NCBI RefSeq assembly: GCF_015353075.1
Contig: NZ_CP064188.1
Location: 868,001 to 932,000, forward strand
Reading direction: 5' to 3'
DNA length: 64,000 nucleotides
DNA from: Rhizobium sp. 007
GTDB taxonomy: Bacteria; Pseudomonadota; Alphaproteobacteria; Rhizobiales; Rhizobiaceae
Below the pieces are notes generated by a model. It saw nothing but the letters and a program-made list of their open reading frames with translations, was not told the origin of the DNA and searched no databases. This document shows positions 1 through 42,732 of the stretch, in pieces; within the stretch, counting starts at the first letter, position 1, and each line of letters begins with the position of its first letter. A program made the translations under genes and the position numbers.

Positions 1-21
1 CTTGACGAAATGCTCAGTCAT
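1..21 (-). CDS. Start of toxin gene of a Phd-type toxin-antitoxin pair (partial)
   Basis: Only the first seven codons (MTEHFVK) are in the window; the gene runs off the left edge. Its ATG overlaps the stop codon of the upstream antitoxin gene by 8 nt, the tight coupling usual for toxin-antitoxin operons. Phd-family antitoxins are most often paired with Doc/Fic or RelE/ParE-type toxins. The short N-terminus would suit a Doc-like protein, but this cannot be decided from seven residues. The function is inferred from position only. Confidence 0.5.
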
Positions 22-280: not shown

Positions 281-840
281 GAACCTGCCCTTCCTGTGTT
301 GTCTGAATAATACAGAAAAGACAGGAAACCGCAAGGCACTTGCGGTTTCCTGACCGGATGACTTTGACTAGCTCTATGATAACATCCCTATTCAGGCCGG
401 TGAAAACGGACGAGAACTACACTTGCGAAGCCGGCGAACTCCGAGCCTGGGAAGCGGGTGAGTACCAGGCTGTCAAGGCATTTTAGGAGGCGCTTCACGC
501 AAATATCTACATAAACTGCGGCAGTCTCTGCGCTGTGATGGGCTGATAAGTCCTACGCCTCCCAAATCTGGCAGGGCAATCAGATCCGGCTTGGTCAAAG
601 TGCCGTCACGGGCATGTCGGCGTTCAACCAGCGTACGACACCCCGTATCGCAGCCGACCTGATCGAAGATCAAAGTACCGGGCGCATCCCACCATCCTGT
701 TCGTCTAACGTTTCATCGCACGAACTTTCATGCCTCGGATCTCTTGTTCTCGTTCGCGGAAGGCCGGCAGAGGCATTCATATAGACCAACGAACGCACTG
801 CGCTTTCCGTTCTGCGAGGAGTAAAGCGTGAAGTGGTGGG
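281..840. other. Gene-poor stretch, no supported gene
   Basis: About 560 bp between the antitoxin promoter region and the phosphoesterase stop codon. A 66-codon open frame on the minus strand (473-673) has a low-complexity, Arg/Pro/Leu-rich translation with no family resemblance I recognise and no clear ribosome binding site. The left part must hold the promoter of the toxin-antitoxin operon, but no clear -35/-10 pair stands out. The stretch may hold decayed sequence. Confidence 0.5.
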
Positions 841-1584
841 CTAGTCGGAGTGGGAGACATAAAGGAAGCGCGGCTCGCTATTGCCAGCAATCACGACGGC
901 TGACAGGCGTCCTGTGCGATAGGCCCCCGTATCGATCGCTATGCGGTTCGAATGGATCTCCGGAAGTTCTGAGCCCGTGATCGTGTGACCATGCACTACG
1001 ACCTTTTCGAGTGGGTCTGAGACATCGAGGAAGCGTTCGCGTATTTCGCGAAGATCCCGCTCGTCCTGGTCCGCAAGGGGCTTCTTCGGGTCGATCCCGG
1101 CATGGACGAGGCAGTAGCCATTCACGATGACCATGTCTGCGGCTCGATTGAGCAGTGCCAGATGATGCGCATATCGGGGAAGCAGCAGGTCCGGCAGCTC
1201 TCCTGCCCAGCCCGGCATGCGGTGACTGTAAGACCGAAGGGTCGACTTTCCGCCTAGGCCTGACAGCCAATGATCAAGCGCCGGATCGCCGAGATGGTTA
1301 TTCAACGCCTCGCGAAACAGGTAGTCGTGATTTCCGAGAATGAATTGCGATCCCTCACGTTCCTGAAGCGTCGCATGCACCATTTCCATCGCTCGCCGAC
1401 TGTCCGGCCCTCTGTCGACGATATCGCCAAGGAATACGACCCGCGGCTCCGCGCCGCATCTGTCGGCATCTTCGTCAATTGTCGCTAACAGAACCTCAAG
1501 CAAGCTGGCCATCCCATGAACATCGCCAATGGCATAAACGGGGCGAGACACAGAACTGGCTAACTCGACGATTTTCATTGGCAT
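841..1584 (-). CDS. Metallophosphoesterase (serine/threonine protein phosphatase-like)
   Basis: The 247-residue protein carries the full calcineurin-like phosphoesterase set: GDVHG near residue 20, GDIVDRG near 53, GNHD near 85, and a late VVHGHT that completes the two-metal site. It is close in size to bacterial PrpA/PrpE or bis(5'-nucleosyl)-tetraphosphatase-like phosphatases. The substrate (phosphoprotein or diadenosine polyphosphate) cannot be told from sequence. The start at the ATG at 1584 (MPMKIVEL) is preferred because the frame further upstream opens only with TTG; a second ATG at 1578 is possible. The gene stands alone and no signal peptide is visible, so a cytoplasmic enzyme is expected. 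Confidence 0.85.
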   Translation of the reverse strand: MPMKIVELASSVSRPVYAIGDVHGMASLLEVLLATIDEDADRCGAEPRVVFLGDIVDRGPDSRRAMEMVHATLQEREGSQFILGNHDYLFREALNNHLGDPALDHWLSGLGGKSTLRSYSHRMPGWAGELPDLLLPRYAHHLALLNRAADMVIVNGYCLVHAGIDPKKPLADQDERDLREIRERFLDVSDPLEKVVVHGHTITGSELPEIHSNRIAIDTGAYRTGRLSAVVIAGNSEPRFLYVSHSD

Positions 1585-1911
1585 ACTCAGACGCAATACA
1601 AGCACTACTCTTCCTTCATCTGAGATGATGCAGCTCTGCTGACAAGGGAGGGAGCTCGGCAAGTGCTTGTTGTGGTGTATGAAACGTCAATCCTTTGCCC
1701 GCTGTCTGCTATACGTCGCATCGAAGGACAGTTTCATACGGGCGCTCAATTGATCCGGTTACTCTTCGACTGCTGCATCGGCCTGAAAGCAGATTCGGCT
1801 CTTCCGGCTTGTCCTGCCCCGTGACGAGCCATATTTTAGAGGAATGCCAGGCGCCGCATGAAAGGGGTGACGCTTTACCGTGCGTAAATCTTGCTCATCA
1901 GGAACGAAAGC
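1585..1911. other. Intergenic region between divergent genes
   Basis: About 330 bp separate the divergently oriented phosphoesterase and HtrA-like genes, so it should hold promoters for both. Open frames here read in from the HtrA-like gene in the wrong frame and look like shadows. I see no repeat, hairpin or clear consensus promoter. Confidence 0.4.
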
Positions 1912-2817
1912 ATGAACATCGACAGAATTTTGCGGTCCGTTGTGGCCGTACGTTCTTCAATTCCGGAAGATGCCTTCACGGCGATGACGCTCGGTACCCA
2001 AAGGGAGGGAAGCGGCGTGGTGATCCGGGAAAATGGGCTGGTGGTCACGATCGGCTACCTGATCACCGAGGCCGAGGAAGTTTGGCTGACGCGCAATGAC
2101 GGGTATGTCGTTCCTGCGCATGCGCTTGCCTATGATCAGGAAACCGGCTTCGGTCTGGTGCAGGCGCTTGGGTCGCTTGACGTTCCCGCATTGGATCTTG
2201 GGGATGCTGCCGAAGCGGAGGTCGGCGATCCGGTCATGCTTGCTGACGGTATTGGTCAGTTCGTGCAGGCTACGATTGTCGCCAAGCAGGAATTCGCCGG
2301 CTATTGGGAATACCTGCTCGAAGAGGCAATTTTCATCGCGCCTGCACACCCTTCCTGGGGAGGTGCGGCACTCATCGGCTCCGACGGCAAACTTCTTGGC
2401 ATTGGCTCGCTGCGCCTGCAAATGAGCCAAAGGGGACAGAGCGCGGACATCAACATGGTCGTGCCGATCAGCCTGCTGCCACCCATTCTTGATGATCTGC
2501 TCACGCGCGGCCAAGTGAACAAGCCGCCGCGTCCCTGGCTCGGGGCCTTCTCTGCCGAAAGTAATGGCGACGTGGTGGTCATGAGCGTGGCTGAAGGAGG
2601 TCCGGCGGCTCAAGCGGGCTTGCGTGAGGGAGATATCATCTCGGAGATACGGGATGGGGAGGTCGCCGGTCTTGCCGACTTTTACCGCAAGCTATGGAGG
2701 AGCGGCCCCGCCGGCGTGGAGATCCCCATGAGGATATTGCGCGACGGCCGCGAGGCATGGCTGCGTATCAAGTCGGCCGACCGCAACAGTTTTCTTCGAA
2801 AGCCGCAGCTGCAGTAA
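1912..2817 (+). CDS. HtrA/DegP-like protein with PDZ domain, catalytic triad apparently lost
   Basis: The 301-residue protein has the two-domain plan of S1C (HtrA) proteases: a chymotrypsin-like domain (about residues 5-195) and a C-terminal PDZ domain (about 205-290, with AAQAGLREGDII). The triad is missing. The usual TNAHV is TIGYL (His replaced by Tyr49), the DxxTDLA region is DQETGFG (Asp replaced by Gly79), and GNSGGP is PSWGGA (Ser replaced by Trp149). It has no signal peptide, so it is expected in the cytoplasm, unlike DegP. The start at 1912 has AGGAA 7 nt upstream. It is probably a non-proteolytic binding or chaperone protein. The fold call is strong; the role is unknown. Confidence 0.75.
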   Translation: MNIDRILRSVVAVRSSIPEDAFTAMTLGTQREGSGVVIRENGLVVTIGYLITEAEEVWLTRNDGYVVPAHALAYDQETGFGLVQALGSLDVPALDLGDAAEAEVGDPVMLADGIGQFVQATIVAKQEFAGYWEYLLEEAIFIAPAHPSWGGAALIGSDGKLLGIGSLRLQMSQRGQSADINMVVPISLLPPILDDLLTRGQVNKPPRPWLGAFSAESNGDVVVMSVAEGGPAAQAGLREGDIISEIRDGEVAGLADFYRKLWRSGPAGVEIPMRILRDGREAWLRIKSADRNSFLRKPQLQ

Positions 2818-2866
2818 TGAAGCTGCACTCGTGTTTGGCAACCGCAATAACGCGCACAAAGTCCGC

Positions 2867-2896
2867 TTGACTCATAAAGGGATCGGTGACCAAATG
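2867..2896 (+). promoter_or_regulatory. Candidate sigma-70 promoter of the LacI/ABC operon
   Basis: TTGACT at 2867-2872 is a good -35. The -10 about 17-18 bp downstream (around 2890-2896) is weak. The tandem LacI operators begin directly behind it, where a repressor would block transcription start. The -35 is seen; the promoter itself is inferred. Confidence 0.45.
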
Positions 2897-2923
2897 GTAA
2901 ATCGGTTTACTAAAGCGGTTTAC
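2897..2923 (+). promoter_or_regulatory. Tandem LacI-type operators
   Basis: Two 14 bp sites sit end to end, sharing one base: GTAAATCGGTTTAC (2897-2910) and CTAAAGCGGTTTAC (2910-2923). Both have the GTAAA-N4-TTTAC symmetry and central CG typical of LacI-family operators; the second has one half-site mismatch. They end 6 bp before the ATG of the lacI-type gene, so autoregulation and control of the whole downstream operon are likely. Their position also argues for the start at 2930. Confidence 0.7.
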
Positions 2924-2929
2924 AAGGCG

Positions 2930-3988
2930 ATGGCGAATGAGCGTGTCACCAGTCTGAAGGATGTCGCCGGTGCTGCCGGCGTTTCCGTGACGACGGTCTC
3001 GCGACTGCTGAACGGATCGCTCGAGCTTCCCCACGAGACGAAGAAGAGGATCGAGGATGCGATCCGTGATCTCAACTATCAGCCCAATCCGCATGCCCGG
3101 CGCCTAAGCCGCGGGCGCTCGGATACAATCGGTCTCGTGGTGCCCGACATCGCCAATCCGTTCTTCGCAACGCTTGTCGCGGCGGTGGAGGAGGAGGCGG
3201 ACCGCCGCGGGCTTGCCGTCTCGCTCTACGCGACGCTGAACCGCTCTGGCCGCGAGGTTGCCTATCTTCAGCTTATCGAGCGCAACCACGTCGATGGATT
3301 GATCTTCGTCACCAACCATCCGGATGACGGGCAACTCGGGGCGCTCATCAACCGCACCGGCAAGGTTGTCGTCGTAGACGAAGACGTCCCGGATGCGCTG
3401 GCACCGAAGCTCTTCTGCGACAACGACAGGGGCGGCTATCTGGCAGGAACGCACCTTGCGGAGATGGGGCATCGCCGCGTCCTTTTCATCGGCGGGCCCG
3501 AACGGATGATCAGCGCACAGCGCCGTTTCCAAGGGCTCGAAAGGGCGATGTACGAACTGTGGGGTGCTGATGCCGTGCTGCTCAACTACAAGGGCGAATA
3601 CACCGTCGCCTTCGGGCGGGAAGCCGCCAAGCGCTTCATAGCCGAGGGCATGCCCGCCAGCGCGATCTTCGCGAGTTCGGATGAAATCGCCATCGGTCTC
3701 ATTGAAGTCTTGCGCAGCCAAGGCATTTCGATCCCGCAGGATGTGTCGGTCGTTGGCTTCGACGACGTCGGGCCGCTGCATCTTTTTGCGCCGCCGCTGA
3801 CGGCCATCCGCCAGCCCGTTCGGCAGATCGGCCAGCGCGCGCTGTCGTTGCTTCTTGAGACAAACTGGCAGGAGCGTGCCCCATCCGCTGTGGAAGAGCT
3901 CCTGCCGGTCGAAATCGTCGTGCGGAATTCCGTTGCGCCGCCGGCGAATCCAAAAACCGCAATGGACAAAAAAAGAACCAGAGGATGA
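2930..3988 (+). CDS. LacI-family transcriptional regulator
   Basis: The 352-residue protein has an N-terminal LacI helix-turn-helix (TSLKDVAGAAGVSVTTVSR, about residues 7-25) with the hinge helix region following (ARRLSRGRS), then a periplasmic-binding-protein-like sugar domain (IGLVVPDIANPFFATLV; late SVVGFDD). The start at 2930 puts the helix-turn-helix at the very N-terminus as in the family and leaves the operators in the leader; longer in-frame starts at 2831 or 2894 would translate through them. Its stop is 4 nt before the binding-protein gene, so the regulator heads the operon it probably controls. The effector is likely the transported substrate or a product of it, which is unknown. 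Confidence 0.9.
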   Translation: MANERVTSLKDVAGAAGVSVTTVSRLLNGSLELPHETKKRIEDAIRDLNYQPNPHARRLSRGRSDTIGLVVPDIANPFFATLVAAVEEEADRRGLAVSLYATLNRSGREVAYLQLIERNHVDGLIFVTNHPDDGQLGALINRTGKVVVVDEDVPDALAPKLFCDNDRGGYLAGTHLAEMGHRRVLFIGGPERMISAQRRFQGLERAMYELWGADAVLLNYKGEYTVAFGREAAKRFIAEGMPASAIFASSDEIAIGLIEVLRSQGISIPQDVSVVGFDDVGPLHLFAPPLTAIRQPVRQIGQRALSLLLETNWQERAPSAVEELLPVEIVVRNSVAPPANPKTAMDKKRTRG

Positions 3989-3992
3989 GAAC

Positions 3993-4949
3993 ATGACCCG
4001 GACTATCAAACGCAGAACATTTACAGCCGCTCTCGGCTTCACCGCATTGGCAACCGCCTCGCTCGCAGGCTTGGGCGCAAGTGCGCAGGAAAAGACCTTT
4101 GCGCTGGTGCAGATCAACCAGCAGGCATTGTTTTTCAACCAGATGAACGAGGGTGCCCAGAAGGCGGCCGATGCAGCAGGCGTAAAACTCGTGATCTTCA
4201 ATGCCAACAACGATCCGGCTGCCCAAAACAGCGCAATCGAGACTTACATCCAGCAGAAAGTCGCCGGTCTTGCCGTCGTTGCCATCGATGTCAACGGCAT
4301 CATGCCGGCCGTCAAGCAGGCGGCAGACGCCGGTATCTCCGTGGTCGCGATCGATGCAATCCTCCCTGAAGGCCCCCAGAAGGCGCAGATCGGCGTCGAC
4401 AACGCCAAGGCCGGCGCTGATATGGGCAAATTCTTCCTCGACTATGTCAAGGCGAACATGGACGGCAAGGCAAAGGTCGGTGTCGTCGGTGCGCTGAATT
4501 CGTTCATCCAGAACGTCCGCCAGGAGGGCTTTGAAAAGACGCTCGAAGGTGTCTCCGGCATCGAAAAGGCTGGCGTCGTCGATGGTCAGAACATTCAGGA
4601 CAATGCGCTTGCCGCCGCCGAGAACCTGATCACCGGCAATCCGGATATGACCGCCGTCTATGCGACCGGCGAACCGGCGCTGATGGGAGCCATCGCCGCT
4701 GTCGAAAGCCAGGGCAAGCAGGATGCCATCAAGGTGTTCGGCTGGGATCTCACTGCCCAGGCGATCGCCGGCATCGACGCCGGTTACGTTGCCGCCGTGA
4801 TACAGCAGGATCCGGCAGCCATGGGTGCTGCGGCCGTCGACGCGCTGAAGAAGGTCTCGGATGGCGGTTCGGTCGATAAGAACATCGCGGTTCCCGTGAC
4901 CATCGTCACCAAGGAGAACGTGGAACCATACAGGGCCGTTTTTAAATGA
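3993..4949 (+). CDS. CUT2-type ABC transporter, periplasmic substrate-binding protein
   Basis: The 318-residue protein starts with a long signal peptide (twin Arg-like RTIKRRTF, hydrophobic core, cleavage probably after GASA at about residue 31). It then has the ribose-binding-protein fold of peripla_BP_4 proteins (FALVQINQQALFFNQMNEG, repeated GLAVVAIDVNG-type strands). GAGGATGAGA precedes the ATG. It lies between the lacI-type gene and the ATPase gene, overlapping the latter by ATGA, so it is the binding protein of the FrcABC-like transporter made by the next two genes. The substrate cannot be read from the sequence; the linked enzymes argue against a plain hexose. Confidence 0.9.
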   Translation: MTRTIKRRTFTAALGFTALATASLAGLGASAQEKTFALVQINQQALFFNQMNEGAQKAADAAGVKLVIFNANNDPAAQNSAIETYIQQKVAGLAVVAIDVNGIMPAVKQAADAGISVVAIDAILPEGPQKAQIGVDNAKAGADMGKFFLDYVKANMDGKAKVGVVGALNSFIQNVRQEGFEKTLEGVSGIEKAGVVDGQNIQDNALAAAENLITGNPDMTAVYATGEPALMGAIAAVESQGKQDAIKVFGWDLTAQAIAGIDAGYVAAVIQQDPAAMGAAAVDALKKVSDGGSVDKNIAVPVTIVTKENVEPYRAVFK

Positions 4950-5758
4950 TCAGCCACGGACAGCACCCAAGCGCGGTCTCCGGAACCGGGGGAGCCATGC
5001 TCTCCCGGCAATCCGGGGCGGCGACAAAACGGCCGCGCATATCGCTCCGCGATATCCGCAAGACCTTCGGCTCGCACCAGGCGCTGCGCGGCGTCGACCT
5101 CGACCTTTACCCCGGGGAATGCCTCGGCCTTGTAGGCGACAATGCGGCAGGTAAGTCAACGCTTACTAAAATTATCTCCGGCACCTATATCCCCGACGGT
5201 GGAACGATCTCGATCGATGGAGAAGAGGTGCGTTTTTCCGGTCCGGCCGAGGCCCGCTCGCGCAATATAGAGATGGTCTTCCAGGACTTGAGCCTCTGCG
5301 ATCATATCGATGTGGTCGGCAATCTCTTTCTCGGCCGCGAAATCACCAAGGGACCTTTTCTCGATCGTGCGACCATGCTTTCCGAGGCGCGCAAAATGCT
5401 CGATGCGCTGGAAATTCGCATCCCGCGGCTGACTGCAAAGGTCGAAAAGCTTTCCGGTGGCCAGCGCCAGGCCATTGCAATTGCCCGGGCCGCCTCCTTC
5501 AATCCCAAGGTTCTGATCATGGACGAGCCGACATCGGCACTTGCCGTTGCCGAGGTGGAAGCCGTGCTCTCGCTGATCAACCGCGTCAAGGCGAAGGGCG
5601 TTTCCGTCGTCCTCATCACCCATCGCCTGCAGGACCTCTTCCGGGTCTGCGACCGGATTGCCGTCATGTACGAAGGCACCAAAGTCGCCGAGCGCGAGAT
5701 CGGCAAGACCGATCTGGAGGATCTCGTGAAGCTCATCGTCGGAGGAGAAAGGCAGTGA
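4946..5758 (+). CDS. CUT2-type ABC transporter ATP-binding protein (single domain)
   Basis: The 270-residue protein has one ATPase domain: Walker A GDNAAGKST (about residues 64-72), signature LSGGQRQ (about 170), Walker B VLIMDEP (about 190) and H-loop ITHR. A single domain instead of the usual tandem RbsA-type pair places it with FrcA-like ATPases common in rhizobia, which presumably act as homodimers. An N-terminal extension of about 30 residues precedes the domain. The start overlaps the binding-protein stop (ATGA) and its end overlaps the permease start (GTGA), so translation is coupled. It energises the permease at the inner membrane. Confidence 0.92.
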   Translation: MISHGQHPSAVSGTGGAMLSRQSGAATKRPRISLRDIRKTFGSHQALRGVDLDLYPGECLGLVGDNAAGKSTLTKIISGTYIPDGGTISIDGEEVRFSGPAEARSRNIEMVFQDLSLCDHIDVVGNLFLGREITKGPFLDRATMLSEARKMLDALEIRIPRLTAKVEKLSGGQRQAIAIARAASFNPKVLIMDEPTSALAVAEVEAVLSLINRVKAKGVSVVLITHRLQDLFRVCDRIAVMYEGTKVAEREIGKTDLEDLVKLIVGGERQ

Positions 5759-6759
5759 CCGTCTATACCGAACGCGCCAAAGGCTCGCCGCTTGCCGACT
5801 TCTTTGCCGAGCACGCGCAGGTCCTGTCGATTGCCTTTTTCTTCCTCGCCTGTGTGGCCTTCTTTGCAGTCACGACCGATACGTTCATGACCGTTGGAAA
5901 TCTCCTGAATGTCGTACGGCAGGCGGCGCCGATTCTGATTGTGGCCGTCGCGATGACCCTGGTCATCGTCACCGGCGGTATCGATCTGTCGGTCGGGTCG
6001 CAGGTGGCGCTCGTCAACGCCGTGGCGGCGATCATTCTCGCCATGGGTTACCCTTGGCCGCTCGTTGTCGCGGGTATGCTGACCTTCGGGGCGCTGATGG
6101 GCATAGCGCAGGGATGGTTCGTTGCCTATCAGGGAATCCCGGCCTTCATCGTCACGCTGGCGGGACTTTCGATCCTGCGCGGCCTGGCGCTTTATCTGAC
6201 GCAGGGCTATTCGATCCCGATCAAGGACGTGCCGGGTTTCTTCTGGCTGGGACGCGGCCAGTTTATCGGCTTGCCGGTCCCTGCGCTGATCGCCATTCTC
6301 GTTGCCGCCATCGGCTATGTCGTGATCTCCTCGACCAAATATGGACGCCAGGTCGTGGCCGTCGGCTCCAACATGGAAGCAGCACGCCGCGTCGGCATGC
6401 CGGCGCAGTGGATCATTGCCTCGGTCTATCTCGTTTCCGGCGCGGCCTCGGCGCTGGCCGGGCTGTTGATTGCGGCGCGTCTTGGCTCCGGCTCATCAAA
6501 CGCAGCCGTCGGTTTCGAACTGCAGGTCGTCGCGGCCGTGGTGCTCGGCGGTACGTCGCTGATGGGTGGCCGCGGCACGATCCTCGGCACGGTACTCGGA
6601 ACGCTGACCATCGCGGTGATCGGCAATGGCCTCATCCTGATGCACATCTCGCCGTTCTTCACCCAGATCGTGACCGGTGCAATCATCCTTCTGGCGATCT
6701 GGCTCAATACCCGCATCTTCACCACCAGTTTCCGTTTCGGCGGCAAGAAGAAGGGCTGA
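5755..6759 (+). CDS. CUT2-type ABC transporter permease
   Basis: The 334-residue protein belongs to the RbsC/FrcC family: about ten hydrophobic segments, the conserved VTGGIDLSVGSQVAL block after the second or third helix, and GGTSLMGGRGTILGT in the C-terminal half. It starts with GTG, overlapping the ATPase stop by 4 nt. As a single permease gene it is expected to form a homodimer in the inner membrane. Immediately downstream (3 nt gap) is the phosphotriesterase-like gene, so uptake and hydrolysis are encoded in one transcript. Confidence 0.92.
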   Translation: MTVYTERAKGSPLADFFAEHAQVLSIAFFFLACVAFFAVTTDTFMTVGNLLNVVRQAAPILIVAVAMTLVIVTGGIDLSVGSQVALVNAVAAIILAMGYPWPLVVAGMLTFGALMGIAQGWFVAYQGIPAFIVTLAGLSILRGLALYLTQGYSIPIKDVPGFFWLGRGQFIGLPVPALIAILVAAIGYVVISSTKYGRQVVAVGSNMEAARRVGMPAQWIIASVYLVSGAASALAGLLIAARLGSGSSNAAVGFELQVVAAVVLGGTSLMGGRGTILGTVLGTLTIAVIGNGLILMHISPFFTQIVTGAIILLAIWLNTRIFTTSFRFGGKKKG

Positions 6760-6762
6760 GTG

Positions 6763-7830
6763 ATGAAAGGTGAACTCTCCGAAGGCCATATCCGATCCGG
6801 CAAGGTGATGACCGTTGCCGGGCCGATTGCAGCTGATGCGCTCGGCGTTACGCTGATGCACGAGCACGTCCTCAACGACTGCCGTTGCTGGTGGCATCCA
6901 CCAAAGACGCCGGAGCGGCAATATCTTGCCGAAGGTTTCGTTTGCATGGAGATTCTCGGTGAGCTCCGCCAGGACCCGTTCGTCAATAAGCACAACATAA
7001 CGTTGGACGACGAGCCGCTGGCCATTGCCGAGCTTGAGGATTTCGCGAAGGAAGGCGGCAGGACGGTCGTCGAGCCGACATGCCAGGGCATCGGCCGCAA
7101 CCCGCTGGCGCTCAGGCGCATTGCCAAGGCCACGGGACTCAATATCGTGATGGGTGCGGGCTATTACCTGGCCTCGTCGCATCCAGCCAAGGTTGCTGGC
7201 ATGAGTGTCGCAGAGATTGCCGATGAGATCGTCTGTGAGGCTCTTGAGGGTGCTCAAGGCACGGATGTGAAGATCGGTCTCATCGGCGAGATTGGCGTCT
7301 CTTCCGACTTCACCGCGCAGGAGGAAAAATCCCTACGCGGCGCAACCCAAGCACACTGCCGCACAGGTCTGCCGCTGATGGTCCATTTGCCCGGCTGGTT
7401 CCGGCTCGGCCACAAGGTGCTCGACATCGTGGCCAAGGAGGGTGGCGATCTCCGCCACACCGTTCTCTGCCACATGAATCCCTCGCATGACGATCTCGGC
7501 TATCAGGGCGAGATCGCTTCGCGCGGCGCGTTCCTCGAATACGACATGATCGGCATGGATTTCTTCTATGCCGACCAGCAGGTGCAATGCCCGAGCGACG
7601 AGGAGGCTGCACGGGCCATCGTCAAGCTCGTCGAGATGGGACACGCCGGCCGTATCCTGCTGTCGCACGACGTTTTCCTGAAGATGATGCTGACGAAATA
7701 CGGCGGCAACGGCTATGCCTACGCCCTCAGGCATTTCCTCCCGCGCCTCAAACGCCACGGCCTCAATGACCGGATCATCGGCCAAATGATGCGCGACAAT
7801 CCACGGTCGGTCTTCCAGGCTGCTGCCTGA
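6763..7830 (+). CDS. Phosphotriesterase-family metal-dependent hydrolase
   Basis: The 355-residue protein is an amidohydrolase-superfamily enzyme of the phosphotriesterase (PTE/PHP) branch. The binuclear site is visible: HEH at 33-35, the bridging residue in GEIGVS (Glu176, where PTE itself has a carbamylated Lys), His208 (MVHLPGW), His237 (CHMNPSHDD) and Asp303 (LSHDVF). Glu as the bridge is the arrangement of the PHP subgroup. Characterised relatives hydrolyse lactones or phosphoesters, so a sugar-lactone or related ring-opening step is plausible. A GTG directly upstream (6760) is an alternative start; the ATG at 6763 is preferred. It is cytoplasmic and follows the transporter genes in the same operon. 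Confidence 0.85.
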   Translation: MKGELSEGHIRSGKVMTVAGPIAADALGVTLMHEHVLNDCRCWWHPPKTPERQYLAEGFVCMEILGELRQDPFVNKHNITLDDEPLAIAELEDFAKEGGRTVVEPTCQGIGRNPLALRRIAKATGLNIVMGAGYYLASSHPAKVAGMSVAEIADEIVCEALEGAQGTDVKIGLIGEIGVSSDFTAQEEKSLRGATQAHCRTGLPLMVHLPGWFRLGHKVLDIVAKEGGDLRHTVLCHMNPSHDDLGYQGEIASRGAFLEYDMIGMDFFYADQQVQCPSDEEAARAIVKLVEMGHAGRILLSHDVFLKMMLTKYGGNGYAYALRHFLPRLKRHGLNDRIIGQMMRDNPRSVFQAAA

Positions 7831-7863
7831 CGGCTGGATTCCATCAAAGAAACGGTAAGGACA

Positions 7864-8634
7864 ATGACAAAGAAAGTACTCCTCGTCGGTGAAAGCTGGG
7901 TCAGTTCGGCCACCCACTACAAGGGCTTCGACCAGTTCGGCAGCGTAACTTTCCATTTGGGCGCCGAGCCGCTGGTCAAGGCGCTTCAGGGTAGCGAATT
8001 CGAACTGACCTACATGCCGGCGCACGAGGCGGTGGAAAAATTTCCCTTCGGCATGGCCGGGCTTGACGCCTATGACGCGGTCATCCTGTCAGACATCGGC
8101 GCGAACTCGCTGCTCCTGCCGCCGGCGGTCTGGCTGCAGTCGAAGACGGTGCCGAACCGGCTGAAACTCATCAAGGCCTGGGTCGAGAAGGGCGGCGCGC
8201 TGTTGATGGTCGGCGGCTACTTCTCGTTTCAGGGGATCGACGGCAAGGCGCGCTGGCGCCGCACGCCGGTCGAAGACGTCTTGCCCGTCACCTGCCTTCC
8301 CTATGACGACCGCGTTGAAATGCCGGAAGGATCGACGGCCGTTGTCCTGAAGCCGGAACATCCGGTCATGGCCGGGCTTGACGGCGAATGGCCGCTGCTT
8401 CTCGGCGTCAACGAAGTGGAACTGCGCGACCGTGCCGATATTGAGGTGCTTGCCCGCCTGCCGGAGGATCAGGGGAGCCATCCCTTGCTGGTGCTGGGTT
8501 CGCATGGCAAGGGCCGCACGGCCGCCTGGACCTCCGATATCGGTCCTCACTGGCTGTCGCCGGCTTTTTGCGAGTGGGAAGGGTATGGACGCTTGTGGAC
8601 CAATCTCCTTGCCTGGATGACCGAGGCGCGCTGA
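7864..8634 (+). CDS. Class I glutamine amidotransferase-like protein (GATase1-like, PF07090-type)
   Basis: The 256-residue protein opens with a Rossmann-like strand and glycine turn (KKVLLVGESWVSS) and has VILSDIGANSLLLP and KGGALLMVGGYFSFQG, the features of the glutamine-amidotransferase-like family once called DUF1355. The usual nucleophile Cys of true glutaminases is not apparent at the elbow (MVGGYFS), so glutamine hydrolysis is doubtful; the fold may serve another hydrolase or binding role. A GTAAGG ribosome site precedes the ATG. It sits 33 bp after the phosphotriesterase-like gene and ends 3 bp before the stop of the antisense kinase gene. The function is unknown. Confidence 0.7.
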   Translation: MTKKVLLVGESWVSSATHYKGFDQFGSVTFHLGAEPLVKALQGSEFELTYMPAHEAVEKFPFGMAGLDAYDAVILSDIGANSLLLPPAVWLQSKTVPNRLKLIKAWVEKGGALLMVGGYFSFQGIDGKARWRRTPVEDVLPVTCLPYDDRVEMPEGSTAVVLKPEHPVMAGLDGEWPLLLGVNEVELRDRADIEVLARLPEDQGSHPLLVLGSHGKGRTAAWTSDIGPHWLSPAFCEWEGYGRLWTNLLAWMTEAR

Positions 8635-8637
8635 AGC

Positions 8638-9534
8638 TCAGGCGGCGAGGATGGCATGGAGTTCGGCATTGGTGGGAAACGCAGATCGGGTGCCCCGCCG
8701 GCTGACAGTTAAGGCAGCAGCAGTGGTCGCGTGGCGTATGGCGCGGGCATCGAGCGGCACGCCGCGCAAGGCACAAGAGGCGAGTGCCGTGCCCATGAAG
8801 GTGTCACCGGCGCCCGTCGTATCGATGGCGGTGACGGGGGCTGCCGGGATCTTAAGGGTGCCTGCCCGGCTTGCGAGCATTGCGCCTTCGCCGCCGAGTG
8901 TCAGGACAGCATATTTGACCCCCGCAGAGATCAGGGTCGACGCGGCAGCTTGGCCGCCGGTTCCAGTCAAGCTCTCGGCTTCGCCTTTATTCAGAAAGGC
9001 GATGTCGATGAGCGGCCAGAGATCGGCGAAAAAGCGACGAAGGGGTGAGGGATTGAAGGCGGTGACCAGCTGTCGGCGCCTGGCTTCTTCAAGGATGCCG
9101 CGGGTAACGTCATCGGAAAGGTTGCCCTGCAGGACAACGAGATCGCCAGCGGTACTTTCGGCAAGCGGCCGAATTGCTTCCGAAAGGGTCAGCGAACCGG
9201 CAGAATCCGTGGTCGTGACGATGGCATTCTCGCCATCGGGGGTGGTGAAGATGATGGAGAAATCGCTGGCTTTTCCGGCGAGTCGGACCAGTCGCGCGTC
9301 GACCGGTTCTTCGGCCAACTGGCTGCGAATGATCTCAGCGCGAAAATCATCGCCGACGGCTGCAACAAGGATGGAGGCAAGACCAGCACGGCCCATCACC
9401 ACGGCCTGGTTCGCGCCTTTGCCGCCAAGGTCACGGGTTTCCTCGTGACCGAGAATCGAGGCGCCTGCCTCGGGCATGGCCGATACGGAAATGGTTTCGT
9501 CCACTGTGACGTTGCCGATGACATAAGCGCGCAT
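8638..9534 (-). CDS. PfkB-family carbohydrate kinase (ribokinase-like)
   Basis: The 298-residue protein has both family signatures: the N-terminal GGKGANQAVVMGRAG (about residues 37-51), which covers the sugar-binding site, and the C-terminal DTTGAGDTFMG (about 239-249) with the catalytic Asp. It also has AFNPSP and LTLGGEGA as in ribokinases. It should phosphorylate a ribose-like sugar or nucleoside. The gene faces its neighbours: the convergent stop is 3 bp away and the divergent start of the next gene 24 bp away. It therefore lies antisense inside an otherwise continuous gene set, with no room for a private intergenic promoter. Confidence 0.9.
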   Translation of the reverse strand: MRAYVIGNVTVDETISVSAMPEAGASILGHEETRDLGGKGANQAVVMGRAGLASILVAAVGDDFRAEIIRSQLAEEPVDARLVRLAGKASDFSIIFTTPDGENAIVTTTDSAGSLTLSEAIRPLAESTAGDLVVLQGNLSDDVTRGILEEARRRQLVTAFNPSPLRRFFADLWPLIDIAFLNKGEAESLTGTGGQAAASTLISAGVKYAVLTLGGEGAMLASRAGTLKIPAAPVTAIDTTGAGDTFMGTALASCALRGVPLDARAIRHATTAAALTVSRRGTRSAFPTNAELHAILAA

Positions 9535-9558
9535 GACTGGCTTTCGAAAGGGAAACAG

Positions 9559-10401
9559 ATGCAGGAAATATCCGACAAGACCTCAAGCGCCATACGGGAA
9601 ATATTCGGGACTGACAAGGCGCTGATCGGCATGATCCATTGCCCCGCCTTTCCCGGCGCGCCGCGTTACCGCGGCAAAGAGATGAACGCCATCTATGACG
9701 CCTGCCTGCGCGACGCCGAGGCCCTGATAGAGGGCGGTATGCACGGGCTGATTATCGAAAATCACGGCGACATCCCTTTCTCGAAGCCGGAGGATATCGG
9801 CCCGGAGACCGCGGCTTTCATGTCGGTCGTCACCGATCGCATCGCACGGGCCGTTGATGTCCCCCTCGGGATTAACGTCCTTGCGAATGCGCCGATCCCA
9901 TCATTCGCCATCGCCATGGCCGGCGGCGCGAAGTTCATCCGGGTCAACCAGTGGGCCAACGCCTATGTCGCGAATGAGGGCTTCATTGAAGGCCGCGCGG
10001 CGCAGGCGATGCGCTACCGGTCGATGCTGAGAGCCGAGCACATTAGGGTTTTCGCCGACAGCCACGTCAAGCATGGCGCACACGCCATCACCGCCGACCG
10101 CACGATCAAGGAACTGACCCGCGACCTTGCTTTCTTCGACGCCGATGCCGTGATCGCCACGGGACAGCGCACAGGCAACACGGCGAGCATCGAGGAGATT
10201 GAGGAAATCGGCGCAGCGACCCACCTGCCGTTGCTGGTCGGTTCCGGCGTCAGCAAGGAGAATATCGTCAAAATCCTGAGGCGCACCAACGGCGTCATCG
10301 TCGCCTCCTCGCTGAAGCACGGCGGCGTGTGGTGGAACCCGGTCGACATCGAGCGCGTCAAGGCCTTCGTTGCAGCCGCCAGACCGGCTTTGAAGGGATG
10401 A
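9559..10401 (+). CDS. BtpA/SgcQ-family protein
   Basis: The 280-residue protein matches the BtpA family, a TIM-barrel group that includes E. coli SgcQ: early LIGMIHCPAFPGAPRY, GLIIENHGDIPF, LGINVLAN and late LLVGSGVSKENI. The family was named for photosystem I assembly in cyanobacteria, but in heterotrophs it occurs with sugar operons and its reaction is not established. Start 9559 is chosen for GAAAGGGAAAC upstream and because it begins at the family N-terminus; an upstream extension would overlap the kinase gene. Its stop overlaps the start of the TenA-like gene (ATGA). A role as lyase or aldolase on the kinase product is possible but speculative. Confidence 0.8.
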   Translation: MQEISDKTSSAIREIFGTDKALIGMIHCPAFPGAPRYRGKEMNAIYDACLRDAEALIEGGMHGLIIENHGDIPFSKPEDIGPETAAFMSVVTDRIARAVDVPLGINVLANAPIPSFAIAMAGGAKFIRVNQWANAYVANEGFIEGRAAQAMRYRSMLRAEHIRVFADSHVKHGAHAITADRTIKELTRDLAFFDADAVIATGQRTGNTASIEEIEEIGAATHLPLLVGSGVSKENIVKILRRTNGVIVASSLKHGGVWWNPVDIERVKAFVAAARPALKG

Positions 10402-11051
10402 ACGGCATGCGGGAGAGTATGTCGGATCAGGTCATCCGGGAAAACCGGTCCGTCTTCGAGGCGATGGTCAGTCATCGCTTTGTCGAGGACATCAAGGCGG
10501 GTCGCCTGTCGAAGGAAGTCTTCGACAGATACCTCGTTTACGAGGGTGCCTTTGTCGAAACTGCCATCTCCATGTTCGCCTATGCAACGGCCAAGGCAGA
10601 GACCATTGCGCAGAAGCGATGGCTGATCGGTGTGCTTGACACGCTCGCCAATCAGCAGATTGCCTATTTCGAGAAGACCTTCGCCGCACGCGGGATCGAT
10701 CCCACAGCCTTCGATGTCGATCGCCCGGAGGTGGCGGACTTCCGCAACGGCATGCTGGAGATCGCAAGATCCGGAGGCTTCCTCGACACGATCGCCGCCA
10801 TGTTTGCTGCTGAATGGATGTATTGGACCTGGTCGAGACAGGCGGCCGAATGCCGGATCGACGATCCATTGCTCAAGGAATGGGTGGACCTCCACGCCCA
10901 TGAGGATTTTGCCGCCCAGGCGCGCTGGCTTAAGGCAGAGCTCGACCTTGCAGCCGATCCCCTCGAGCCCGTCGAGCGGTCGCGGCTCAGCAGCATCTTC
11001 GGCCGGGTCCAGCAGCTGGAGATCGGTTTTCACGGCGCGCCCTATCGATAG
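10398..11051 (+). CDS. TenA-family protein, TenA_E type (no catalytic Cys)
   Basis: The 217-residue all-helical protein resembles TenA/THI-4 aminopyrimidine aminohydrolases: FDRYLVYEGAFVE (about residues 42-54), the helix with EWMYWTW (139-145) and WVDLHAHEDFAAQ (162-174). The Cys of TenA_C enzymes is replaced (Ala138 at the expected place), while the second catalytic Glu is kept (Glu169). This is the TenA_E pattern, some of whose members act outside thiamine salvage. No thiamine genes or TPP riboswitch are nearby. The ATG overlaps the btpA-like stop. It probably hydrolyses an amine or amide in the pathway of this cluster; the substrate is unknown. Confidence 0.75.
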   Translation: MNGMRESMSDQVIRENRSVFEAMVSHRFVEDIKAGRLSKEVFDRYLVYEGAFVETAISMFAYATAKAETIAQKRWLIGVLDTLANQQIAYFEKTFAARGIDPTAFDVDRPEVADFRNGMLEIARSGGFLDTIAAMFAAEWMYWTWSRQAAECRIDDPLLKEWVDLHAHEDFAAQARWLKAELDLAADPLEPVERSRLSSIFGRVQQLEIGFHGAPYR

Positions 11052-11295
11052 CGGAGAATGCCCATGACACAGGCGGTTGGCATCGCTGGCGAGGGACCCG
11101 TGAGACGGCTCATGGCGTCGAGGCGGTCGCCCGGACAAAAACAAGGGGGGTGCCGGTTTGCTCCGGGCTGCGTAGGCTCGATGGCGTCTTTGCTGGGCGC
11201 GATCCCGCGAACTGGGATAGCAGTCGAGCCACAGATGGGGCGCTCTTCGAAAGCTACTAAGCCTTCCGGAAGCAGCTGGCGGGCTTAGTCGCGCC
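11052..11295. other. Intergenic, no supported gene
   Basis: About 240 bp between the TenA-like gene and the AbiEi remnant. A short open frame (11058-11288) has an Arg/Ser/Gly-rich translation with no family resemblance. The stretch probably holds the operon end and decayed sequence linked to the remnant that follows. Confidence 0.4.
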
Positions 11296-11484
11296 ATGCT
11301 GGGCTTCCGATATCGCAACAAGATCGGTCTGTCGGTGGCGATCGAAGGCCTCCAAAAAGCGCTTCGCCAGCCTAAGGTGGCGGCAGGCGAAATTGCTAGA
11401 CAGGCCGAGCGTGGCGGTGTCTTCACCGTCGGGCCGTATCTCGAGGCGCTGACTGCCAATGGCTACCGACGATCCTCAAGATAA
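11296..11484 (+). pseudogene. Remnant of an AbiEi-like (type IV antitoxin) gene, C-terminal fragment
   Basis: A 62-codon fragment contains KIGLSVAIEGLQKALRQ and a following VGPYLEAL. In complete AbiEi-family antitoxins the C-terminal part carries a very similar KIGLDVALEALRD...RPYLE block. The N-terminal winged helix and the rest of the protein (normally about 200 residues or more) are absent upstream, and no AbiEii nucleotidyltransferase partner follows. It is best read as the leftover of an abortive-infection or toxin-antitoxin module. The family match is from memory of the motif and is moderate. Confidence 0.5.
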
Positions 11485-11508
11485 AGCTGCCGAAAAGCCA
11501 TCAATTCG

Positions 11509-11533
11509 GGAACAATACCGCTGTCTTCAGGTT
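11509..11533 (+). promoter_or_regulatory. EcfG/RpoE2-like stress promoter upstream of the YbhB-type gene
   Basis: GGAAC at 11509-11513 and GGTT at 11530-11533 are separated by 16 bp, close to the alphaproteobacterial general-stress consensus GGAAC-N16/17-CGTT. It lies about 67 bp upstream of the ATG of the YbhB-like gene. The -10 has G instead of C at its first position. Confidence 0.5.
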
Positions 11534-11599
11534 GATCTTGCTTCAACACAAAAGCCCCAGAGGCTGCGCGTGAGGCAGCAGGATGAAAGGAGAAGCGCA

Positions 11600-12061
11600 A
11601 TGGCACTGACCCTGATGAGCCCGGCATTCACACAGGATAATCCCATTCCCAAGAAATATGCGCGCTCCGGCGAAAATCTGTTCCCGCCTCTCAAGTGGGG
11701 CGGGGCTCCGCAAGGAACGAGAAGCTTTGCCTTGATCGTCGAAGACCCGGACGCGCCGCGCGGCACCTTCCGCCATTGTGGCATTGCCAATATCCCATCC
11801 GATTGGGATGCTCTGGCCGAAAGCGCCGATACCGCACCGGAAAACGCGCCACGCTTTTACACGAATGATTTCGGCAATGCGCGCTATGATGGTCCGCAGC
11901 CACCACGGGGCGACAAGGCGCATCACTATATCTTTCGCCTTGCCGCGCTCGACGTCCCGAGGCTTTCGGTTCCCGGCGACGCCGGTATCGCTTCGATGTG
12001 GAACGAAGCAAGGAAACATATGCTCGCCGAGGCAAGCATTACCGGGACCTATCAGACCTAG
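11600..12061 (+). CDS. YbhB/YbcL family Raf-kinase-inhibitor-like (PEBP) protein
   Basis: The 153-residue protein is a bacterial PEBP: SPAFTQDNPIPKKYARSGEN at the N-terminus, the ligand-pocket motifs DPDAP (about residues 51-55) and GPQPPRGDKAHHY, and a C-terminal helix. The molecular role of these proteins in bacteria is not settled; no signal peptide is seen. AAAGGAGAAG lies just upstream of ATG 11600, which also fits the family N-terminus. It is convergent with the DUF2267 gene and is preceded by an EcfG-like promoter, so stationary-phase or stress expression is likely. Confidence 0.9.
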   Translation: MALTLMSPAFTQDNPIPKKYARSGENLFPPLKWGGAPQGTRSFALIVEDPDAPRGTFRHCGIANIPSDWDALAESADTAPENAPRFYTNDFGNARYDGPQPPRGDKAHHYIFRLAALDVPRLSVPGDAGIASMWNEARKHMLAEASITGTYQT

Positions 12062-12161
12062 GATGAGCTGATTTCATTTGATCCGACTTGGCAAGTGCTG
12101 ATCGGGCAGCGCAATGCGCCCAAGGTTCCGGCGAAAAGGGCGGCGGCCCGCTGTTCCGCCG

Positions 12162-12602
12162 CTATCTTACGCCGACGCTGTCGGGCCACAAAGCCTGAAT
12201 CTCCTTGGGCAGTGCGTCGCGCACCTTCGCCGATTGGCCGAGATCGACATGACGGGCAAGAACGTGGAAAACCGATTTCGCCGCATCGGCGGGATCGACC
12301 GGACGAATGGATTTTAGCCCTTCGGCGACACGCTCGAGGAATTCATCGCGTGAACGCGTCTTTTCCGGCATCTGGGAAGGTCGATACTGATCATAGTAGA
12401 TGCCGCGAACGATGAGCGGCAGTTCTGCGCCGAGATGGGCCGCAAGGTCCGGCGAAAGCTTGTCGCGCAAGGCCTTAAGGACGGCGCCCAGAATATGCCA
12501 TGCGACGTGCCGGTCGGGACCATGGTCGGCCATGATTTCGTTCAGCCAGATATTGGTGGTTTGCAGTGTCTTGTCGAAGACATCGAGACCGGTTGTGCTC
12601 AT
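12162..12602 (-). CDS. DUF2267 family protein
   Basis: The 146-residue protein matches the DUF2267 family: the N-terminal FDKTLQTTNIWLNEIM, the HILGAVLKALRDKLSPDLAAHLGAELP block and the PLIVRGIYYDQYRPS stretch. These are small helical cytoplasmic proteins of unknown function, often found next to CBS-domain or stress genes in soil bacteria, as here (the CBS gene is divergent, 248 bp away). CAAAGGAGGG upstream of the ATG is a strong ribosome site. No EcfG-type promoter was found on its side. Confidence 0.85.
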   Translation of the reverse strand: MSTTGLDVFDKTLQTTNIWLNEIMADHGPDRHVAWHILGAVLKALRDKLSPDLAAHLGAELPLIVRGIYYDQYRPSQMPEKTRSRDEFLERVAEGLKSIRPVDPADAAKSVFHVLARHVDLGQSAKVRDALPKEIQALWPDSVGVR

Positions 12603-12784
12603 ATTGAGACCCTCCTTTGCAAGGGGCCGGTCGAAGCCCGAACATCCTTCTCAAAGAGCACAACTGCAATTGGCCACAATTGTTTCGTCATTCGCAAAGA
12701 AAACGGCCGTGGAGCGTCTATATGCGGGCAATTGCCTGGCGTGAGCGTCCAAATTGCTGACAGGGACGTTAATCGATGACGCTT

Positions 12785-12809
12785 GGAACATTGCCGAGCC
12801 AGATACGTT
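12785..12809 (+). promoter_or_regulatory. EcfG/RpoE2-like general stress promoter upstream of the CBS gene
   Basis: GGAAC (12785-12789), a 16 bp spacer and CGTT (12806-12809) match the EcfG consensus exactly. The site ends 41 bp upstream of the CBS-protein ATG, a normal leader length. This suggests expression under the general stress sigma factor. Confidence 0.7.
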
Positions 12810-12850
12810 GGACTTTTGTAGAAATCCATACAAGGCGGAGGATAAAAATC

Positions 12851-13294
12851 ATGAAAGTGAGCGAAGTGATGACGCGCGACGTCCGGCTCGTCAGGCCGGG
12901 TGACACGATTGAGGAAGCGGCAAGGATCATGGCCGAACTCGACGCCGGCGTCGTGCCGGTCGAGGATAATGACCGGCTCGTTGGCATGCTGACGGATCGC
13001 GACATCGCGGTTCGCGCCATTGCCCAGGGGCAGGGACCTGAGGCGAAGGTCGGCGATATCATGACGTCCGAAGTCAGATACTGCTTTGATGATCAGGACA
13101 CCGACGAAGTCTGCAAGAACCTTGCCGATCAACAGATCAGGCGCATTCCGGTGGTTAATCGGGACAAACGGCTGGTCGGCATATTGTCGCTTGGCGATCT
13201 GGCTACTGTCGCCGAAAAAGCGTCGGCCGGCGCAGCTCTTGCGGGGATATCGCGGCACGGAGGCCACCATTCGCAGTCGAGCGGCCTTCACTAA
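12851..13294 (+). CDS. CBS-domain pair protein
   Basis: The 147-residue protein consists of two CBS domains (about residues 1-60 and 66-125), each ending in a characteristic block: RLVGMLTDRDIAVRA and RLVGILSLGDLATVA. Such stand-alone pairs bind adenine nucleotides such as AMP or ATP and act as energy or stress sensors; the partner protein is not encoded next to it. The C-terminus is His/Ser-rich (HGGHHSQSSGLH). GGAGGATAAAAATC precedes the ATG. An exact EcfG-type promoter lies upstream, so it likely belongs to the general stress regulon. Confidence 0.9.
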   Translation: MKVSEVMTRDVRLVRPGDTIEEAARIMAELDAGVVPVEDNDRLVGMLTDRDIAVRAIAQGQGPEAKVGDIMTSEVRYCFDDQDTDEVCKNLADQQIRRIPVVNRDKRLVGILSLGDLATVAEKASAGAALAGISRHGGHHSQSSGLH

Positions 13295-13349
13295 GCGGCC
13301 GCGCGATGAGGCGGAAAACCGGGTGGCGCCACCCGTTCCCGCCGTACCC

Positions 13350-13378
13350 GGGTGCGCGCCGTTACGCGGCGCGCACCC
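13350..13378 (+). terminator. Strong GC hairpin after the CBS gene
   Basis: A perfect 12 bp stem (GGGTGCGCGCCG / CGGCGCGCACCC) with loop TTACG lies 55 bp after the CBS stop. A second palindrome, GGGTGGCGCCACCC, is just upstream at 13321-13334. There is no U-tract, so it is either a weak or factor-assisted terminator, or an RNA 3' end protector. Confidence 0.5.
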
Positions 13379-13409
13379 CCAAATGCTGCAATGCGGCGAC
13401 GAATATCTC

Positions 13410-13462
13410 TTGACGGCCGTCCTGCTGTAACCTTTACTCAACTGATCTGGTGGACCAACCAG
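13410..13462 (+). promoter_or_regulatory. Promoter and operator of the GntR-type regulator operon
   Basis: TTGACG (13410-13415) is followed after 17 bp by TTTACT (13433-13438), an acceptable -35/-10 pair. Right behind it is the inverted repeat CTGGT-N6-ACCAG (13447-13462), nested within a wider CTGATC/GATCAG pair (13442-13470). FadR-subfamily GntR repressors often bind TGGT-Nx-ACCA sites. The operator over the start point fits autorepression and control of the denD operon. Confidence 0.6.
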
Positions 13463-13484
13463 TGGATCAGTGACGACGGGGACC

Positions 13485-14228
13485 ATGGACGAGAGCCCAA
13501 TCTTGACGCAAGTGCCGAATGTCGGGCGAAGCCTTGCCCGCCAGACGGCGCGCGACGTCATCGCTGAAAAGCTGATGGTCCTGATTGCCACGAACATGCT
13601 GCGGCCGGGCGACGAGCTGCCGGGCGAGCGCGAGCTTGCCAATGTTCTTCACGTTAGCCGGGAAACGGTGCGCGGCGCAATCCAGATGCTTGCCGCCCAA
13701 GGCATCATCGAAGTCTCGCACGGCAGCCGCAGCCGCGTCGGCAAGGTCGACCTCAGCCACATCACCGTCACCATCGCATCCCCAAACGCCATCGACAGCT
13801 ACGATTTGGAATCGGTCCATGCGGCGCGCCTGCATATCGAACTCAAGATCGTCGGAGATGCCGCCGAAAGGATAGACGCCGAAACGCTGAAAAAGGTGCA
13901 GGGCCTCATCGAAGCGCAGCGTCTGGGTGGAGACGATGCAATGCGCTTTCTCATCTGTGACCGTGAATTCCACGTCGCAATCTATCGCGCCTGCGGAAAT
14001 CCGCTGCTCGCCGACTTCGTCACCGATCTATACACCTACATGATGGACTACCGACGCAACGCCATGTCCCAGCCGGGCGCCATTGAGGCCAGCTACGCCG
14101 ACCACGTTGCGATCGCCGAGGCCCTTGAACGGCATGACCGGGACGCCGTGATCGCCGCGTTTCGCCATCATCTGACGCGCATTTACGAAACGACCAGGGC
14201 TCTTTTGAGCGCCGGCGGTCCGGCGTGA
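13485..14228 (+). CDS. GntR-family regulator, FadR subfamily
   Basis: The 247-residue protein has an N-terminal winged helix-turn-helix (LRPGDELPGERELANVLHVS, then RETVRGAIQMLAAQGIIEVS) and an all-helical FCD effector domain (about residues 90-235) with likely metal-ligand residues (DREFHVAIYRACGN, FRHH). The ATG at 13485 is preferred to a GTG 15 nt upstream. It is the first gene before denD (29 bp gap) and stands behind its own predicted operator. FCD regulators typically sense organic or sugar acids, which agrees with a tetronate pathway. Confidence 0.9.
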   Translation: MDESPILTQVPNVGRSLARQTARDVIAEKLMVLIATNMLRPGDELPGERELANVLHVSRETVRGAIQMLAAQGIIEVSHGSRSRVGKVDLSHITVTIASPNAIDSYDLESVHAARLHIELKIVGDAAERIDAETLKKVQGLIEAQRLGGDDAMRFLICDREFHVAIYRACGNPLLADFVTDLYTYMMDYRRNAMSQPGAIEASYADHVAIAEALERHDRDAVIAAFRHHLTRIYETTRALLSAGGPA

Positions 14229-14257
14229 GCCGGACAGCATGAGGAGACTTGCCTGAT

Positions 14258-15241: not shown

Positions 15242-15242
15242 G

Positions 15243-39827: not shown

Positions 39828-39841
39828 CCTGTCCTCCCAGA

Positions 39842-39879: not shown

Positions 39880-39907
39880 GAAATTCATGATGAAAGGCTC
39901 GCGACAG

Positions 39908-41976: not shown

Positions 41977-42001
41977 TACAACTACGAAAGCAAGGATTGA
42001 T

Positions 42002-42730: not shown

Positions 42731-42732
42731 CC

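Follow-up and report, generated by a model that had tools for sequence, protein, structure and literature searches.

What nutrient would call for a ribose-type importer, a sugar kinase, putative carbon-nitrogen (C-N) hydrolases, and a BtpA-family protein under one LacI-family regulator? The question is raised by nine intact genes at positions 2930-11051 of a 64,000-nucleotide stretch of Rhizobium sp. 007 (assembly GCF_015353075.1, contig NZ_CP064188.1, positions 868,001 to 932,000), hereafter the window. The 7.6-Mb genome is a near neighbor of Rhizobium mongolense, and its BtpA is 98% identical to that in locus L001. The answer favored here, over which we remain evenly divided, is that this island serves, under LacI control, to scavenge an N-riboside, for example a modified nucleoside or the ring-opened form of one. 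We infer the substrate, the order of the steps, and every reaction; the substrate class was chosen because the island has ribose-type parts and C-N hydrolases and other sugar enzymes are absent. Such an island would disclose a new nutrient used by rhizobia and by the other bacteria that carry it.

In the proposed order, the ribose-type CUT2 importer would take up a ribose-linked nitrogen compound. The PTE-family protein, as a binuclear-metal amide hydrolase, and the TenA-family protein, as a Cys-less C-N hydrolase, would trim its nitrogenous part to give ammonia or a small amine, a task that an M20 carbamoylase or deacylase may share in relatives. The PfkB kinase would phosphorylate the ribose at O5, the BtpA barrel would hold the phosphate and free or rearrange the phosphoribosyl part, and ribose-5-phosphate would pass into central metabolism with no more enzymes needed. 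In keeping with ribose-5-phosphate as the product, the island encodes no enzyme for later steps of sugar breakdown. A preliminary description of this DNA had envisaged import of a ribosylated nitrogen compound followed by hydrolysis and phosphorylation with BtpA involved; that general idea fits, with the place of BtpA revised below.

Ribose-type parts and hydrolases

Gene families were assigned by Pfam, and the closest models by NCBIfam scores against their cut-offs. The LacI-family regulator (2930-3988, plus strand) is nearest RbsR, then CytR and PurR. It is followed on the same strand by an RbsB-like CUT2 periplasmic binding protein (3993-4949; closest solved chain 5hsg), an ATPase with one ATP-binding cassette (ABC) domain nearest the N-terminal half of RbsA (4946-5758), and a permease nearest the ribose permease model (5755-6759). 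The PfkB kinase (PF00294; 8638-9534, minus strand) is ribokinase-like, and all five proteins remain under the equivalog cut-offs; with ribokinase RbsK (TIGR02152) the kinase reaches 188.6 bits against 299.65. It retains GGKGAN and DTTGAGD, and D238 to D244, with the catalytic Asp, are kept in at least 97% of 88 sequences. Equally conserved is QGN at 136-138, in place of the QLE found around Glu143 in E. coli RbsK; we take Glu143 to bind ribose.

The PTE-family metal hydrolase (PF02126; 6763-7830, plus strand) finds its best PDB matches in 3k2g (572 bits), Pmi1525 (212), and 9efa (206). From its chain name, "phosphotriesterase-related protein", and from matching residues, we infer that 9efa is PTER. 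According to the available part of its report, mouse PTER is an N-acetyltaurine amide hydrolase with 3K2G as top structural match, metal residues H26, H28, and E169, and substrate residues R204, R233, and H300 (PMC11374699). The window protein is like PTER in its PTE-family fold, its HxH / Glu / His / His / Asp metal site, and 3k2g as nearest solved relative. All six metal ligands, H34, H36, E177, H209, H238, and D304 (numbered from codon 6760), are kept in at least 97% of 93 sequences, and the bridging ligand is Glu, as in PTER. However, the three PTER substrate residues are absent, with G212, P241, and F306 at the places of R204, R233, and H300 (9efa alignment, mapped by hand), so the substrate likely differs. 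To judge by sequence, PTER-like amide hydrolysis of a different substrate is plausible. PTER is also reportedly linked to N-acetyl-beta-alanine (PMC13311154).

The preliminary description had treated this protein as a lactone or ester enzyme, and the PTE family includes lactonases. The corresponding pathway would be plain catabolism of a sugar or sugar lactone, in which a lactone would be opened by PTE and the acid or the sugar phosphorylated by PfkB, with accessory roles for TenA and the GATase-like protein. While the importer and kinase are indeed of sugar types, the PTE sequence is nearer PTER-type amide hydrolases than the lactonase and esterase models tested, reaching 57.7 bits with the phospho-furanose lactonase model against a cut-off of 630. 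With the PTER-like bridging Glu, and with recurrent M20 and TenA partners that it would leave unexplained, the lactone pathway appears decidedly unlikely.

The TenA-family protein (TENA_THI-4, PF03070; 10407-11051, plus strand) is Cys-less, as had been claimed: it reads A135-E136 (at least 97% of 75 sequences), with AE also in 1z72 and 2a6b and Cys in 3mvu, 1rtw, and 2rd3. It fits what we take to be the TenA_E class, in which the active-site Cys is absent and a conserved Glu is found instead. A protein search with TenA gave 661 matches, and the 120 listed supplied no gene context. A TenA of this type would suit a pathway that salvages thiamine breakdown products, or another pyrimidine, through TenA as its key enzyme. 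In three PF07090 loci (L230-L232) a CN_hydrolase gene accompanies an NMT1/THI5-like binding protein, and in L229 the binding protein occurs without CN_hydrolase (similarity, with Pfam on L231 only). However, TenA scores 50.7 bits with salvage_TenA (TIGR04306) against an equivalog cut-off of 130, and it is missing from eight of the 80 loci of the main sample (the best BtpA matches, at least 78% identical, forming one orthologous clade compared by tblastn). Neither window positions 1-16000 nor the 20-kb stretch L188 has an Rfam match, and hence neither has a thiamine pyrophosphate riboswitch at gathering score, in line with the preliminary description of the vicinity. Since a thiamine route would also need neither ribose importer nor ribokinase, it is considered very unlikely. 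Elsewhere in the genome, the one further TenA-family match, at C2:853424, looks like PqqC, and genes resembling those of pyrroloquinoline quinone synthesis lie at C2:852432-855521, about 12-16 kb before the window; in L188, two neighbors at 6433 and 8389 are like PqqB and PqqE, as judged from their first residues alone.

The GATase1_like protein (PF07090; 7864-8634, plus strand) has the stretch MVGGYFSFQG where we would place the elbow, which in class I glutamine amidotransferases is presumably G-x-C-x-G-x-Q. The stretch contains no Cys; G117 and G118 are kept in at least 97% of 102 sequences, and a conserved Cys144 lies elsewhere.

BtpA and its gene neighborhoods

The BtpA/SgcQ-family protein (PF03437; 9559-10401, plus strand) scores 232.5 bits with its family model (TIGR00259, cut-off 153.4) and 202.5 with BtpA of photosystem I biogenesis (NF045918), under the equivalog cut-off of 400. 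It is predicted to form a triosephosphate isomerase (TIM) barrel (predicted local distance difference test, pLDDT, 80.3; predicted template modeling score, pTM, 0.84). The predicted fold is near ThiE, HisF/HisA, TrpA, ribulose-phosphate epimerase, hexulose-phosphate synthase, and MJ1099 with phosphoribosyl pyrophosphate; phmmer against PDB gave nothing at E≤0.001. Residues G228, S229, G230, S250, and K253 are kept in at least 97% of 97 sequences, and the GxG after strand 7 and the Ser/Gly loop after strand 8 of the barrel model may form a phosphate site.

The family is uncommon, with matches above its cut-off in 19 of 398 sampled genomes of the phylum. Twenty-two further BtpA loci were examined within 6 kb of the gene, several of them paired from one genome; L173 was left out as a weak match without a label. 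A sugar kinase lies near BtpA in 20 of the 22, and in 18 of 19 when L133, L164, and L182, which bear window-type pieces, are excluded, leaving loci without nearby GATase-like, PTE, or TenA genes. Because BtpA tracks sugar kinases and its predicted fold resembles phosphate-binding barrels, it more likely acts on a phosphorylated substrate. No reaction is assigned to it in the literature among the matches listed, nor in the available part of an E. coli carbon atlas (PMC13343008). The regular company of a sugar-phosphorylating enzyme makes this orphan family an enzyme class that can be put to the test. Distant BtpA genes (28-32% identical; L165, L167-L172, L174-L179, and L181) stand beside FGGY kinases, some with M42 peptidases, and represent another set of pathways.

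Around 38 PF07090 genes, examined to 7.5 kb, a C-N hydrolase of some family was found in 35 loci, a figure to be read as description rather than as an independent test because the query families were partly drawn from these loci. The families counted were PTE, M20, CN_hydrolase, M24, S33, amidase, creatininase, deaminase, and nucleoside hydrolase. A kinase was found in 24 of the 38 and BtpA in 15. One nucleoside island, L131, combines a distant GATase-like gene (48%) with nucleoside hydrolase, cytidine deaminase, creatininase, an adenine-deaminase-like protein, and a PnrA-type binding protein. In L121, a LacI-PfkB fusion (8204-9385) has a CUT2 importer, an M20 gene, and a GATase-like gene as neighbors.

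As rough controls, 68 flanks of about 7.3 kb gave a kinase in four, a C-N hydrolase in four, and a GATase-like gene in four. These matches are probably the same second islands: four flanks carry GATase-like, LacI-PfkB, and M20 genes, probably those of L031, L035, L036, and L045, the loci in which a second GATase-like gene was seen 3' of the first island. Seven overlapping 15-kb stretches of the window served as another control, with an FGGY-type gene in three.

The strongest rival is catabolism of glycated amino acids (Amadori compounds or glycosylamines), in which the kinase would phosphorylate the sugar of the conjugate, BtpA would be a deglycase, and amide hydrolases would trim the amino-acid part. 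HisA, which performs an Amadori rearrangement, is among the fold neighbors of BtpA, and M42 genes lie near six of the 22 further BtpA genes. The islands L241, L243, and L245 likewise join a GATase-like gene and a DeoR-PfkB fusion with an amino-acid permease and a proline-iminopeptidase-type hydrolase (Pfam on L241, the others by similarity); a large open reading frame (ORF) beside them may be a tetrathionate reductase gene. The window importer, however, is ribose-type rather than amino-acid-type, its kinase scores only 44.4 bits with the fructoselysine 6-kinase model against the 188.6 with ribokinase, and Pfam identifies no deglycase of known kind among the island proteins. Glycated amines are therefore ranked as unlikely.

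Several observations weigh against the N-riboside pathway itself. The island contains no nucleosidase of its own. The departure of the kinase pocket near Glu143, as read from the sequence, would fit a substituted ribose but equally another sugar. Two of the 22 further BtpA loci (L163 and L133) have no kinase, and 12 have no C-N hydrolase from the query list; among PF07090 loci, three of 38 (L135, L227, and L244) are without C-N hydrolase and 14 without a listed kinase nearby, and some PF07090 loci have other importers (an amino-acid permease or NMT1-type). With 14 kinase-less loci and other importers, the GATase-like module is not confined to ribosides. The counts are also partly circular, as both kinase and hydrolase queries were chosen in part from the loci counted. 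In addition, the ribose activity of RikA, a Salmonella kinase described below, is possibly a side activity according to its authors, in the available part of their paper (PMC13432705).

A narrower form of the N-riboside pathway, which we think rather improbable, would start from a ribonucleoside that is modified or has its ring opened, dihydrouridine-type and hydantoin-riboside-type compounds being examples. Here PTE would open a cyclic ureide, M20 would remove the carbamoyl group, PfkB would make the 5'-phosphate, and BtpA would found a class of TIM barrels that split or rearrange phosphosugar-nitrogen bonds. If true, the whole BtpA/SgcQ family, E. coli SgcQ included, would gain its reaction type.

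Operators, conservation, and the M20 gene

The preliminary description had placed tandem LacI operators before the island, and these were recovered as two 12-bp sites with a 13-nt period (2898-2922): TAAATCGGTTTA at 2898 and TAAAGCGGTTTA at 2911, the last base being 7 nt 5' of the LacI ATG. They form the sole tandem site in the genome at up to one mismatch, so that no second tandem operator marks a regulon outside the island; within the window, the single motif occurs at 10 or more of 12 positions at just two other places. The LacI start had been put at 2867, but the ATG at 2930 is more likely because the earlier start would put the operators inside the gene. At least one operator lies 5' of lacI in 78 of the 80 loci and at least two in 67, compared with 1.7% and 1.4% of 4000 random 330-nt stretches. 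The tandem operator and a close BtpA (E below 1e-150) fall in the same four of 41 genomes, and the regulator therefore looks dedicated to the island.

With the preferred starts, the successive gaps between the nine genes are 4, -4, -4, 3, 33, 3, 24, and 5 nt. The tight spacing (overlaps or gaps under 40 bp) and the families given in the preliminary description were borne out by Pfam and coordinates, but that account omitted the minus-strand orientation of PfkB and missed an M20 relic. The PfkB gene is convergent with the GATase-like gene and divergent from the BtpA gene, and its sense strand is thus not read from the operators. It is on the minus strand in 62 of the 80 loci, and in the other 18 on the plus strand, 3' of TenA.

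The eight genes other than TenA were matched in all 80 loci, and TenA in 72, so the genes are conserved together in other genomes. The GATase-like match is weak in L062 (84 bits), and L053 carries PTE and GATase-like genes as a paralogous pair. One might suspect that selfish or recently assembled genes, with no shared pathway, came together here by chance: occurrence in the genus is patchy (10 of the 61 genomes searched, this one among them, have a close BtpA), and five of 80 record titles name a plasmid. This suspicion is contradicted by a gene set shared among 80 of 80 loci, by its conserved operators, and by the recurrence of the set in another family, taken to be Enterobacteriaceae; a chance assembly is regarded as extremely improbable. 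In that family 36 of 295 genomes match the GATase-like protein; among the stretches examined, from 20 of the 36, seven (L233, L234, and L236-L240) hold all nine genes, at 40-70% identity, together with M20.

This tenth gene, M20, is full length in 38 of the 80 loci (30 with TenA and eight without) and partial in seven; the L053 copy sits at another place in its locus. All eight TenA-less loci have M20, and no locus is without both. The association has p=0.0017, a value that is optimistic because the loci are related. In the four TenA-less loci inspected, the M20 protein occupies the TenA position. The M20 protein of L003 scores 371.4 bits with TIGR01879 (hydantoinase/carbamoylase; cut-off 204) and stays under every listed equivalog cut-off. 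In the window, pieces in two frames (11102-11248, plus strand) form a HyuC-like relic of a carbamoylase-type M20 gene, resembling M20 residues 113-166 approximately; its best score of 36.6 bits was equaled in none of 1000 dinucleotide shuffles (maximum 31.2). Three other M20 matches occur in the genome, two over most of the length (39% and 34% identity) and one at 43% over 116 residues.

Variant islands differ in their partners. Among rhizobial TenA-less paralogues, M20 is present in L122, L126, L127, L138, and L139, and L125 has neither TenA nor M20; the locus tested for its regulator, L122, has an XRE-cupin protein. In the islands of the presumed Enterobacteriaceae, M20 is of the ArgE/DapE type in the locus tested, L128. 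The gene set is split in two cases, L053 and the pair L120 and L164 of one genome, into an importer-PTE-GATase-like half (with M20 in L053) and a LacI-importer-BtpA-TenA-PfkB half, which suggests that the island consists of two sub-modules.

Known relatives and window surroundings

The island looks like a catabolic system of the LacI/CUT2 type, with a smaller relative already published. The preliminary description knew of no identical characterized operon, and none was found in the open-access literature among the matches listed, nor any account of the full island. The available part of one 2026 paper describes the relative, Salmonella rikA (STM3547)-STM3548-STM3549-STM3550, as genes for a ribokinase-like PfkB, GATase-like, DMT, and PTE proteins that form a possible pathway with a substrate unknown to its authors, and reports that RikA phosphorylates ribose in vitro (PMC13432705). 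By comparison of gene lists, without direct alignment to STM3547, the window likewise keeps a RikA-like PfkB, a GATase1_like gene, and a PTE gene close together, but BtpA, TenA, and M20 are not named in that part of the paper (PMC13432705). The rikA locus also has a DMT transporter in place of the LacI-controlled CUT2 importer. Among rikA-type stretches, in which PTE and GATase-like proteins are 35-43% identical to those of the window, the kinase best matches a DeoR-PfkB fusion in L197, L242, and L246 and a plain PfkB in L196. RikA-like kinases in L241 (9131-10357, Pfam) and L197 (8029-9276, similarity) carry an N-terminal DeoR helix-turn-helix; such a domain may explain the 90-residue N-terminal extension that is annotated on STM3547 and doubted by its authors. 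The Salmonella rikA locus is thereby placed in a wider set of islands.

The E. coli sgcABCEQX genes, as presented in the available part of the atlas (PMC13343008), similarly join the BtpA-family SgcQ to an uptake system that phosphorylates and to a zinc hydrolase, which in L163 is an M42 protein. The uptake system there is a phosphotransferase system, whereas the window has an ABC importer and a kinase; in the sgc-type locus L163, BtpA is only 30% identical and no PTE, GATase-like, or TenA gene is nearby. In the same part of the atlas no substrate is settled for SgcQ, sgc mutants are reported to grow without defect in the assays used, and the chemistry suggested is of the pentitol type (PMC13343008), which differs from an N-riboside substrate. 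The Rbs ribose operon shares the CUT2 importer, LacI-family repressor, and ribokinase-like PfkB; in addition to these the window has PTE, GATase-like, BtpA, and TenA genes, with M20 in relatives and as a relic in the window, and its kinase falls below the ribokinase cut-off. Expression literature on Rhizobium leguminosarum, searched with guessed locus tags, held nothing bearing on the cluster in the part available (PMC7900000).

Elsewhere in the window, positions 38742-44367 hold another ABC importer of sugar type, along with an ORF that is like short-chain dehydrogenases and a kinase of the FGGY type, as judged by similarity and first residues only. At 53067-58108, ORFs resemble the biotin synthesis genes bioB, F, D, A, and Z by their first residues.

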